Of a stretch of 36,357 nt of DNA, positions 337 to 18,877 are shown piece after piece. Each line of letters starts with the position of its first letter. Positions within the stretch are counted from its first letter, which is position 1. Where the stretch lies: positions 1 through 36,357 of the forward strand of contig JALWSY010000178.1 of the NCBI GenBank assembly GCA_027083035.1, in the 5' to 3' direction. The DNA comes from Sulfurimonas sp. Lineage in GTDB: Bacteria > Campylobacterota > Campylobacteria > Campylobacterales > Sulfurimonadaceae. A program made the position numbers and the translations under genes. A model generated the notes under the pieces. The model was given only the letters and a program-made list of their open reading frames with translations. It did no database searches and had not been told where the DNA came from.

Positions 337-1137
337 TTATCTAGCGTTTTCGATGGCCGTATCGAAGCTTTCCATGTCTAAAGAGTATTTCTCAATCAGT
401 TCTTTAGCAGCAGCCTCACTTTCATCTGTGATGACACCATTGATAGGTACTGCTACGCGCACAACGTGTAAAATTTGTGCAGGACGCTGATCAGCCTCTT
501 CTGCTTGTTCAGGGTTTTGACAGTTTCTAATAACATCAACAAGTCCCTCTTCAAATTTCCATTGTGAAAAGATTGTAGCGCTCACTTCAGGTGTATCAAC
601 ACCTACGATTTCTCGCTCAGCAGCTTCTACATCTCCTAATTCGGCAAGTGCTGCTTTAAATTCAGCCTCTTTACCATCTGCAAGTACTTGCTGTGCAATA
701 AGAACTTTCCCTATCTCAACAAGAAATGCCGCAGGAGAGAGTACACCTAAGAGGCGATTCTCTTTTCTTAGACACCATGCTGTCATTAATCCATGCTGCT
801 TTTTAGAGAGTGCTGAGAACATCTCATTTGTTATGCCATATGGAGAGAGGTCAAGTGAAAAACTCTTTTTTACAATAGAAGCAAGTGCAAAGCCACGAAC
901 AGTACCCATACCAAAGAGTCCTACTGCTTGACTAATAGCATTTATCTCACGGCTAAAACCATATAGTGGAGAGTTTGCCGCCTTGAGGATATCTGCAGTT
1001 AAAAGAGGATCTTTCTCTAAAATCTTTACCATATCGTTAAAACTACTGTCAGGGTCTTGATAAACCGCTTCAATCTGCATAGCAGACTCAGGAAGTGGTG
1101 GTAGTTGTTTGATTTTTTTTAATATTGCTTCAGTCAT
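337..1137 (-). CDS. HDOD domain signalling protein
   Basis: A 266-residue protein made mostly of one HDOD domain, a non-catalytic relative of HD phosphohydrolases used in bacterial signalling. The diagnostic stretch is near residues 43-60 (DPLLTADILKAANSPLYG), followed by INAISQAVGLFGMGTVRGF. An open frame runs upstream to 1197, but the ATG at 1137 is preferred: AAGAAGG lies at 1148-1154 and the protein then begins MTEAILKKIKQLPPLP as HDOD proteins usually do. It lies 9 nt upstream of rnr on the same strand and is the first gene of that unit. No output domain is attached, so what it signals to is unknown. A second HDOD gene occurs at 18080-18877. Confidence 0.85.
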   Translation of the reverse strand: MTEAILKKIKQLPPLPESAMQIEAVYQDPDSSFNDMVKILEKDPLLTADILKAANSPLYGFSREINAISQAVGLFGMGTVRGFALASIVKKSFSLDLSPYGITNEMFSALSKKQHGLMTAWCLRKENRLLGVLSPAAFLVEIGKVLIAQQVLADGKEAEFKAALAELGDVEAAEREIVGVDTPEVSATIFSQWKFEEGLVDVIRNCQNPEQAEEADQRPAQILHVVRVAVPINGVITDESEAAAKELIEKYSLDMESFDTAIENAR

Positions 1138-1171
1138 TTTGGAAAACCTTCTTATTGAATTACTTCCTATA

Positions 1172-1177
1172 ATTATA
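1172..1177 (-). promoter_or_regulatory. Putative -10 box for the HDOD-rnr unit
   Basis: TATAAT on the minus strand, 34 nt upstream of the HDOD ATG. No convincing -35 is seen, which is usual for sigma-70 promoters in this phylum. It sits in the 146-nt divergent gap shared with the gene starting at 1284. Confidence 0.45.
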
Positions 1178-1243
1178 GTCATTAGAGATAAATTCATACT
1201 GAATATTTACAAAAAGCTGATATTATTTTTAGAAATAATTACG

Positions 1244-16688: not shown

Positions 16689-18083
16689 TTATCTTGTTAA
16701 GAAAAAGATAAATTTATCATCATTAAATGATAAATCAACCTGTACACCTTTTTTCCCCTCTACAATTTCTAAAAGACTTTTCACATCTGGGTAGGTTCTA
16801 GGGAGTGTGATATCTACACTAACATCATGATCAGCAAGGAGAGTTTTTACTTTTCCCCCTACAATATTTACAAGTTCTGCAAGAGTATCTAGAATCATCT
16901 CCTTATCATTTGTCTCTTCACCGATTAAAAGCTCACACGCTTTTTTTGCTATCTCTTGAGGAAAGATAAGTACAACCATTCCGTCCATATCTCCATAAAA
17001 ACCGATGGAACTAGCAATAGTATTTTCTTGATTTTTTACTTCGATATTATCAACTTTAGCACTCTCTTTCATTGCTTTAGAGTTTGTCATCATCTCTATT
17101 GTTGCCACAGTAGCATCAATGAAATTAGGTAACTCAGTTACTGTTACCTTGTTGAGAGCGCGTTTGTTTTTTATATTTGCAGCACTACTTGCACCCAGCT
17201 CTTTTAGTAACTCCTTGTCTTGAAGGATATCATCCATATGATTAAAAAACATAATTCCAGAGTCTTCTAAAATCTCTTTGAACTCTTTGGGTGTTTTATC
17301 AAAGCTAAGTCCTACAAAGCAGATAGTAGCATTGTACTCAGCTGCTGAAGTAGAGAGCTTTGAGAAGAAGTTCAGGGCATGAACATTCATACTGACAACT
17401 TTGTAGGCATCAAAGATAAAGAGTCGAAAACCGACATTCAGAGAGTTGTTGTGGTACTCGATATTAAAAGTATTTCCTATTTCTGCATCAAGAAAGGAGC
17501 TTACGGTATAAATGATAGCATTACCTGTAACACGGGTAGCTACCTTTTGACCCATCTGTCCTAAGTAAGTTTCGGTAATGATGATATCATAGGCATTTTC
17601 TGCTTTAGCTTTCTCATCAAACTCCTCTTGTGTTTGTGCAATTATTGGGTTGTGTCCGTTGTCGTGCAACTCTATCGCCATGGCAGCGCGTTGCGACTTA
17701 TCATCACTATAAAGGAGTACATTTTTATTTTGATTTTTGTAGTTACTTGAGAAGAGGGTAGCTATCTCTTGTGTTTTAAAGAGGGAGAAAGAGAGGTCAT
17801 CTTTGTAAAATTTGATTATTGCTTCATACTTTTTTGCATCATAATCACAAAAACCGACGGTAGCATGATTTGCTGCACGAACTTTATGAAACATCTTCAC
17901 AAAAGCATCTAGACCATTACGATTAAAAAAGATGACTTTTTTGAGTGAAACTAACACCATTCCAGCATTTTGTGAAACGGTTGCTTCGATGTCTTCAATA
18001 CTTAAAATTGCTATGCTAGAAGCACCATCTAAAAAGCCTTGTGGATGAAAAACACCTATACCATTTTTTAATACTGCTCTCAT
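16689..18083 (-). CDS. Multidomain signalling protein: STAS-like, pseudo-receiver, STAS-like, CheX-like phosphatase
   Basis: A 464-residue soluble protein. Residues 1-110 follow the STAS pattern (strand, helix, a VSLKKVIFFNRNGLDAFVKM core). Residues 119-205 look like a receiver domain, but the phospho-acceptor position in AYDIIITETYLG is Glu171, not Asp. Residues 215-295 again look STAS-like. Residues 315-464 resemble CheX/CheC phosphatases, with the catalytic ExxN kept as Glu403-Asn406 in LAELVNIVGG. CheX proteins remove phosphate from CheY-type receivers. The ATG overlaps the HDOD stop by 4 nt (ATGA). The CheX part is fairly sure; the two STAS and the receiver assignments rest on fold pattern only. 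Confidence 0.72.
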   Translation of the reverse strand: MRAVLKNGIGVFHPQGFLDGASSIAILSIEDIEATVSQNAGMVLVSLKKVIFFNRNGLDAFVKMFHKVRAANHATVGFCDYDAKKYEAIIKFYKDDLSFSLFKTQEIATLFSSNYKNQNKNVLLYSDDKSQRAAMAIELHDNGHNPIIAQTQEEFDEKAKAENAYDIIITETYLGQMGQKVATRVTGNAIIYTVSSFLDAEIGNTFNIEYHNNSLNVGFRLFIFDAYKVVSMNVHALNFFSKLSTSAAEYNATICFVGLSFDKTPKEFKEILEDSGIMFFNHMDDILQDKELLKELGASSAANIKNKRALNKVTVTELPNFIDATVATIEMMTNSKAMKESAKVDNIEVKNQENTIASSIGFYGDMDGMVVLIFPQEIAKKACELLIGEETNDKEMILDTLAELVNIVGGKVKTLLADHDVSVDITLPRTYPDVKSLLEIVEGKKGVQVDLSFNDDKFIFFLTR

Positions 18084-18877
18084 GAAATCTCCATTAGTTG
18101 TGAAAACTCTTCATAGATATCTTGCACATACTCTATCTGAAAATCGATAAAGTCATTTAAATCTGCTTCAATGTATTGAGGCTGAGAGAGGGTATAAAAG
18201 AGAAGTAGATGCATCCATTTTCCAAGAGTGTTAATATCTGCATCATCAGAAGGTTTTACTCCAGAAGCTGCTTGAATAATCTCACCTATCTCCTCTGGCA
18301 TCTCCCACTTTTGTGCAATTTTCTGGGCAATATCAAAAAGATCCATCCCACAAAGTCTTTTTAAAATAGTATTTAGGTCTATTTCGTGTACACTTCTGAG
18401 AAGGGCAACATCTTTTTTCTTTTCATTAAAGAGCGCTTCGCTTACAATTATGCTTGCAGGAAGCAGAGAGATGGCACTTAGTTTATCTTTGTCCTCAATT
18501 CCCAAATGCTCTAAAATTTTTTTCCAATTCATAGAGAGATCTGCTTGAAGGTTGTAAAAGAGAACACGGTTGAGTTTAAAGAGGTTCCATTTTGAAGGGG
18601 AGAGTAGGGAGAGCATATAATTATATACTGCTTGTTGCGCCCTAGAGACACCTAAAATACCAAAAATCTGAGAAACTTCACTTACTTCATTCTTAAAACC
18701 ATAAATGGGTTTATTAACCAATAATTTAAGGTAGTTATTGAGTGCCTTATCCTCTTTCGCAATAGCCGCAGCCTTGACTAAGTCACCATTGCCTAAATGG
18801 GTCAATGTCGCTTTTAGAATTTTTGGTGCCGGTGGTATTTTATCTATATAGTCTTCTATTTTTTCTTGTGTTATCAA
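18080..18877 (-). CDS. HDOD-domain signalling protein, partner of the CheX fusion
   Basis: 265 residues. The first 200 match an HDOD domain: IDKIPPAPKILKATLTHLG, then ALNNYLKLLVNKPIYGFKNEV and SQIFGILGVSRAQQAVYNY. The rest is helical and acidic, without known motifs. The start appears to be TTG at 18875-18877 with a weak AGAAAG upstream; an ATG at 18887 is in another frame. The stop overlaps the start of the STAS/receiver/CheX gene, so the two proteins are made together and probably act together. It is distinct in sequence from the HDOD gene at 337-1137. Confidence 0.8.
   Translation of the reverse strand: MITQEKIEDYIDKIPPAPKILKATLTHLGNGDLVKAAAIAKEDKALNNYLKLLVNKPIYGFKNEVSEVSQIFGILGVSRAQQAVYNYMLSLLSPSKWNLFKLNRVLFYNLQADLSMNWKKILEHLGIEDKDKLSAISLLPASIIVSEALFNEKKKDVALLRSVHEIDLNTILKRLCGMDLFDIAQKIAQKWEMPEEIGEIIQAASGVKPSDDADINTLGKWMHLLLFYTLSQPQYIEADLNDFIDFQIEYVQDIYEEFSQLMEIS

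Follow-up and report, generated by a model that had tools for sequence, protein, structure and literature searches.

How HDOD domains work is unsettled, according to the accessible portions of two papers (PMC6543031 and PMC11004494). In the stretch of Sulfurimonas sp. DNA analysed here (the window, 36,357 nucleotides), the gene for an HDOD protein overlaps one for a protein that combines STAS domains with a CheX-type phosphatase domain, which raises the question of what such a pair does and in which pathway. We use the name STX for this second, 464-aa STAS–CheX protein. An earlier reading made from the letters alone (the sequence-only reading) had proposed a signalling unit in which the phosphatase might be permanently tethered to a built-in mimic of a phosphorylated receiver.

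The HDOD and STX genes form an overlapping pair

Both genes lie on the reverse strand. The HDOD gene (18080..18877) encodes 265 aa and starts with TTG, at a place where relatives show Met. The STX gene (16689..18083) encodes, in order, STAS, half-receiver, STAS and CheX domains. The stop of the first and the start of the second share an ATGA (18080..18083, reverse strand), which can be read directly in the sequence. The two-gene unit of the sequence-only reading is thus borne out in its open reading frames, strands, coordinates and four-base overlap. Divergently upstream of the HDOD gene lie rpmB (identified by eye) and a K+ channel gene (identified by Pfam). STX sits between HDOD and rpe, with trpF and dnaQ also downstream (all three identified by eye). 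These neighbours in the window are all housekeeping genes, with no chemotaxis or stress gene among them.

Named relatives of the window's genome are mostly Sulfurimonas. The HDOD and STX genes overlap in 77 of 80 named loci, at -4 in 76 and at -1 in one; in the remaining three, STX lies at a contig end (two loci) or is read as two ORFs with HDOD just upstream (one locus). STX copies broken by stops or a split frame were seen in genome G131 (contig 1, about 1387914-1388880) and at locus L132 (3943-5337), and may reflect either decay or sequencing error.

The HDOD assignment rests on a PF08668 match of 41.6 bits (cut-off 22.9) and on the fold. The AlphaFold2 model of the protein (pLDDT 92.5) gave Z scores of 18.3 to 3m1t, 17.7 to SadB (9qzk) and 12.0 to Cj0248 (1vqr); of the solved chains, Cj0248 is also the one closest to it in sequence (E 1.1e-8). 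For the HDOD alignment, 80 of the 89 listed non-redundant rows were kept. The window holds a second, canonical HDOD protein at 337-1197 (reverse strand; 117 bits), which falls outside the STX partner class, and two more HDOD proteins score over the cut-off elsewhere in the same genome.

The HDOD partner is found only in genomes with STX

Co-occurrence was surveyed in 298 Campylobacterales genomes of at least 90% completeness; the phylum-level search listed only genomes of this same order. The HDOD partner is a sharply bounded ortholog class, present in 91 of the 298 genomes at 169 bits or more, with the next best match at 67 bits. STX was found in 108 genomes, a set that includes G131, where stops break the frame, and G130, where a contig end cuts the gene; any genome missed at the first search stage counts as absent. 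All 91 HDOD genomes carry STX (Fisher p 1.3e-59, without phylogenetic correction). Since the genomes are related to one another, p-values of this kind overstate the association. Seventeen STX genomes are without the HDOD partner: those of family f14, the partial G130, and G105, G117, G134, G087 and G099. Despite the missing HDOD, STX has kept its place between rpmB and rpe in G134 and G105.

The sequence-only reading had held that the pair would be doubtful if the two genes were unlinked in relatives. They are indeed unlinked in 13 genomes (11 of f16, two of f13), but both genes are still present there, and HDOD never occurs without STX. In the f16 and f13 loci that were read, an rnhA-like and an rnc-like gene flank HDOD with one exception; most STX copies there stand between a trpE-like and an aroE-like gene (names assigned by eye). 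Across L222-L231, from these families, the HDOD ortholog is upstream of rnc-like and aroC-like genes and follows an rnhA-like gene except in L230; in most it overlaps a neighbour by a few bases.

The two proteins also diverge in step. Distances were compared across loci holding all the genes concerned, after near-identical copies had been removed (145 to 116 loci, or 113 to 95 where the K+ channel was included). STX and HDOD distances correlate at 0.94-0.96. The partial correlation is 0.74 with rpe and trpF regressed out (116 loci) and 0.78 with the K+ channel regressed out as well (95 loci); when one of these neighbours (rpe, trpF or the K+ channel) took the place of HDOD, it was just 0.06-0.30. 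An earlier run that regressed out rpe alone and included duplicates gave 0.85. As fast-evolving genes can share rate effects, this co-variation supports, and does not prove, contact between HDOD and STX. Chance adjacency was rejected on the 77 overlaps in 80 loci, the 91/91 co-occurrence and the distance correlation taken together.

Here, then, is an HDOD protein whose apparently obligate partner has a recognisable function; the HDOD protein is conserved in many families of the order and missing where there is no chemotaxis (see below). Because the partner appears obligate, HDOD function becomes directly testable in a single protein pair.

Domain architecture of STX

STX was modelled with AlphaFold2 using 94 relatives as input (pLDDT 82.8, pTM 0.59); the latter value indicates that the model defines single domains better than the way they pack together. 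For the alignment, the 193 copies were reduced to 94 at 80% identity, and loci L132, L159, L172 and L206 were left out. All domain coordinates below are on the reverse strand.

STAS1 spans residues 1-112 (17748..18083). It matches PF01740 at 23.2 bits against a cut-off of 22.6 over residues 5-70, and the SpoIIAA profile (1auz) over residues 5-71 (E 0.0055). As the VIA-align rows did not reach residues 1-112, the assignment rests on Pfam, the SpoIIAA profile and the order of strands and helices. The half-receiver, of b-a-b-a-b topology only, occupies residues 119-178 (17550..17729), by response-regulator profile match and secondary structure. STAS2 covers residues 180-297 (17193..17546) and was recognised by comparing the model with known structures (VIA-align to 3f43 over residues about 174-296, Z 12.8, rmsd 2.9, 113 aligned). 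The CheX domain, residues 312-464 (16692..17150), matches PF13690 at 54 bits against a cut-off of 27 over residues 356-446. Its fold aligns with 3hm4 (Z 18.7, rmsd 2.5, 148 aligned) and with the CheX chain of the CheX-CheY complex 3hzh (Z 18.1). Two STAS-like modules and a CheX domain had been proposed for this protein, and Pfam, the SpoIIAA profile and model comparison support all three, within domain limits that differ from those first suggested.

The STAS folds resemble those of SpoIIAA, RsbS and stressosome chains in VIA-align. This likeness favours a reading in which they are partner-switch or stressosome elements of a stress pathway, and in which CheX and HDOD have a role apart from chemotaxis. 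The acceptor Ser of SpoIIAA-type STAS domains lies in a D-S-S motif. At the corresponding sites STX has N54-R55-N56-G57 (STAS1) and N233-V234-H235-A236 (STAS2), without Ser or Thr, and so lacks the acceptor of a phosphorylatable SpoIIAA-type domain. Asn54 is conserved in 82 and Asn233 in 87 of the 94 non-redundant relatives, whilst Ser or Thr occurs at residue 55 in 3/94 rows and at residue 234 in 3/94. The missing acceptors count against a stress pathway, as do the absence of a switch kinase among the neighbours read and the fact that the pair's presence follows CheA. We therefore consider a stress pathway very improbable.

The half-receiver and Glu171

The sequence-only reading had described a receiver domain with Glu171 (17571..17573, reverse strand) in place of the phospho-acceptor Asp. 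The region is receiver-like, and its best profile match is PhoP (1mvo, E 1.3e-4), in which the acceptor Asp pairs with Glu171. The match ends there: the roughly 60 residues from 119 to 178 correspond to no more than the initial ~56 residues of response regulators, and the strand that follows belongs to STAS2, by the secondary structure of the AlphaFold2 model and by VIA-align. A whole receiver domain was thus rejected, and the segment is only half a receiver. It lacks the complete (beta-alpha)5 fold and the acceptor Asp, and with the second half go the pocket Thr and Lys. Pfam gave no match for the window's middle segment, and Response_reg in just 5 of 61 members (61 of 94 segments were kept for this alignment), at E up to 1.

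Could Glu171 nonetheless mimic phospho-Asp and permanently tether or inhibit the phosphatase? It does align with the acceptor Asp, and in receivers that lack the Asp, Glu takes its place most often, according to the available text of PMC4395418. Against this, the 94 non-redundant relatives have D25, N24, K9, L8, S7, E5, H5, M4 and Q3 among others at position 171, and the 42 close relatives D15, N11, S7 and E3 among others. Such variety indicates that a phospho-mimicking Glu is not what selection keeps. The missing second half leaves no pocket Thr or Lys, and conservation among the four domains is lowest in the half-receiver, with a mean entropy of 2.25 bits against 1.80-2.09. Glu171 as a conserved phospho-mimic is contradicted as a family mechanism (Glu in 5/94), and a permanently tethered pseudo-substrate, in a truncated module with a variable residue 171, is unsupported as a shared mechanism. 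We give this explanation almost no credence.

The CheX catalytic motif and its loss

The ExxN motif of the CheX domain, Glu403 to Asn406 (16866..16877, reverse strand), is intact in the window, as the sequence-only reading had stated, and in 173 of the 188 aligned full-length copies (those over 280 bits and 430 aa, without removal of redundant copies). Members of the CheC/CheX/FliY family place a conserved Asn and an acidic residue in the active site of CheY, as the consulted portion of PMC3035606 describes.

In the other 15 of the 188 copies Asn406 is replaced (by H, Y, S, V, D or G), and 13 of these 15 are still HDOD-linked. The Asn-less HDOD-linked copies belong to families f11 and f20 and make up most of the HDOD-linked copies read from both. 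Among the f20 loci read, seven (L173-L179) have H, Y or S at residue 406 of their full-length HDOD-linked STX, and L180 is intact; in the f11 copies L051, L200 and L202-L205 both catalytic residues are lost. No link was seen between lacking Asn406 and lacking HDOD: 13 Asn-less copies are HDOD-linked, and the aligned f14 copies keep ExxN without a partner. A short paralog of about 345-360 aa, without STAS2, was also found (L050, L052, L053, L054 and L207-L221). All 15 copies read, 12 of them from f20, retain both the Glu and the Asn of ExxN, including where the long copy has lost Asn; in L050-L054 the paralog has no adjacent HDOD. Genome G121 carries a second, divergent full-length STX (L168, 3763-5178, forward strand) with no HDOD neighbour.

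Judged by these residues, the pair appears to outlive phosphatase chemistry in f11 and f20. Its persistence where catalysis is unlikely means that binding has to account for part of what the pair does, and the loss of the catalytic Asn from most HDOD-linked copies of these two families speaks against a purely catalytic role for STX. One possible, though rather unlikely, extension is that STX is mainly a scaffold that binds phospho-CheY or dimerises, with dispensable CheX catalysis, and serves as HDOD's anchor to the chemotaxis machinery. The 13 HDOD-linked Asn-less copies fit this picture, as do the HDOD-free short paralogs of f20, which keep E and N as if catalysis had moved to them. It is harder to reconcile with the intact ExxN of the other 173 copies, the window's and the aligned f16 and f14 ones among them.

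Presence of the pair tracks chemotaxis, not the flagellum

The CheA dimerisation domain was found in 244 of the 298 genomes and in 106 of the 108 with STX (Fisher p 1.4e-9, uncorrected for kinship). In the window's own family, f1, 30 genomes have both STX and CheA, seven have neither and none has one alone, an agreement of 37/37. FliG was tested in 21 of the 54 CheA-lacking genomes; seven matched, one with stops. Three of these genomes, all of the genus Sulfurimonas (G084, G019 and G011), have an open FliG and lack CheA, CheW, STX and the HDOD partner. FliG is thus kept where the pair and chemotaxis are both absent, indicating that the pair follows chemotaxis, not the flagellum, and flagella were rejected as the tracked trait on these three genomes. 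CheA is present in 138 genomes without full STX, so STX is not a core chemotaxis part.

The sequence-only reading had suggested looking for the pair near chemotaxis or stress genes. Proximity in this sense is lacking: the neighbours are housekeeping genes, and no che gene stands beside HDOD or STX in any locus whose neighbours were read. The association is instead one of presence, which tracks CheA. The STX profile gave no match to the CheY and CheB receivers of its own genome.

STX might alternatively act on response regulators other than the chemotaxis CheY, its association with CheA reflecting general genome streamlining. Two genomes, G134 and G181, point this way in keeping STX and FliG without CheA or CheW. 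G134 has lost the HDOD partner and has Tyr at residue 406 of STX, as if the gene were decaying, and the G181 genome is 91% complete. The 37/37 agreement in f1, which includes the three FliG-keeping genomes, further argues against such targets, and we regard them as unlikely.

Proposed role of the pair

Taken together, a conserved, chemotaxis-dependent HDOD/STAS-CheX pair stands, and the Glu171 mechanism does not. The domain architecture, the ExxN motif, the obligate dependence of HDOD on STX, the co-variation of distances and the dependence on CheA were all computed. We think the chances about even that the pair is an undescribed accessory chemotaxis phosphatase of the Campylobacterales with a dedicated HDOD regulatory partner.

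For the substrate, the physical contact between HDOD and STX, the ligand and the direction of regulation, we infer the following. The CheX domain most likely dephosphorylates a CheY-type response regulator through Glu403 and Asn406. The STAS/half-receiver/STAS region would form a non-phosphorylatable docking and regulatory arm. HDOD may bind STX and set its activity or position in response to some signal, for which c-di-GMP is one candidate ligand by analogy with SadB, reported to bind c-di-GMP in the accessible sections of PMC6543031. More tentatively, and as something we find possible rather than probable, HDOD could be an obligate regulatory subunit of a chemotaxis phosphatase, which would make it the first HDOD domain whose protein partner is defined. 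Working alongside the chemoreceptors, it would then let a second-messenger or metabolic signal set how long CheY~P persists; in lineages that lost the catalytic Asn, the pair would have turned into a pseudo-phosphatase device.

Comparison with known systems

HDOD proteins have been tied to motility before. PSPTO_4229 (PMC11813219) and Cj0248, GsmR and SadB (PMC11004494) are motility-linked examples, and the two papers together cover effects in Pseudomonas, Xanthomonas and Campylobacter, as far as their available portions go. A partner that tunes a chemotaxis phosphatase would fit these reports. Cj0248 and SadB share the HDOD fold of the STX partner, and both are linked to motility in the excerpts at hand (PMC11004494, PMC6543031); unlike the partner, SadB has an added YbaK-like domain. 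Those same excerpts make no mention of a phosphatase partner gene for either protein.

The CheX proteins of Thermotoga, Borrelia and Desulfovibrio share the fold of STX residues 312-464 and the ExxN motif. The solved CheX chains, however, are single-domain proteins of about 155 aa, whereas the CheX domain of STX is C-terminal, behind STAS, half-receiver and STAS, and comes with an HDOD partner gene. FliY and CheC likewise have the CheC/CheX/FliM superfamily fold seen in STX. FliY carries the FliN part of the C-ring, and a FliY-like ORF in the window's own genome (L165) follows a fliM-like gene; STX neither has a FliN part nor adjoins such a gene.

This genome encodes further CheX-type proteins. 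The 277-aa protein at L163 (1435-2268, reverse strand) ends in a CheX domain, and its N-terminal helical repeat region resembles MshEN by eye; a CheY-like gene and cheB adjoin it, in a chemotaxis cluster. L164 (contig C84) has a CheX-type match within an 841-aa frame that shows, by eye, a histidine-kinase-like ATPase region and adjoins a SulP-type transporter. At L166 a separate 142-aa CheX-like ORF, without STAS, precedes a fliN-like ORF. STX is distinct from all four of these proteins (L163, L164, L165 and L166). The F3-class cheX of Campylobacterota adjoins fliNO, according to the portion of PMC9321776 consulted. STX has its domain family and phylum in common with F3-class CheX, but its gene does not lie next to fliNO. 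Neither STAS nor HDOD occurs in the main text of that paper.

A limited search of the open-licence literature found no description of a CheX and HDOD pair, and a prior description elsewhere is possible. A STAS–CheX protein is likewise not described in the accessible parts of the open-licence chemotaxis papers found for CheX with STAS, nor the pair in those of the CheX literature on Sulfurimonas, Helicobacter and Campylobacter (including PMC9321776, PMC9239204 and PMC10542144). The remark that no described pathway has this set of domains therefore holds within the open-licence literature searched. For Campylobacterota chemotaxis, the consulted text of PMC9321776 lists CheZ and a different CheX; to these, the HDOD/STX pair adds an apparently uncatalogued phosphatase-like part.
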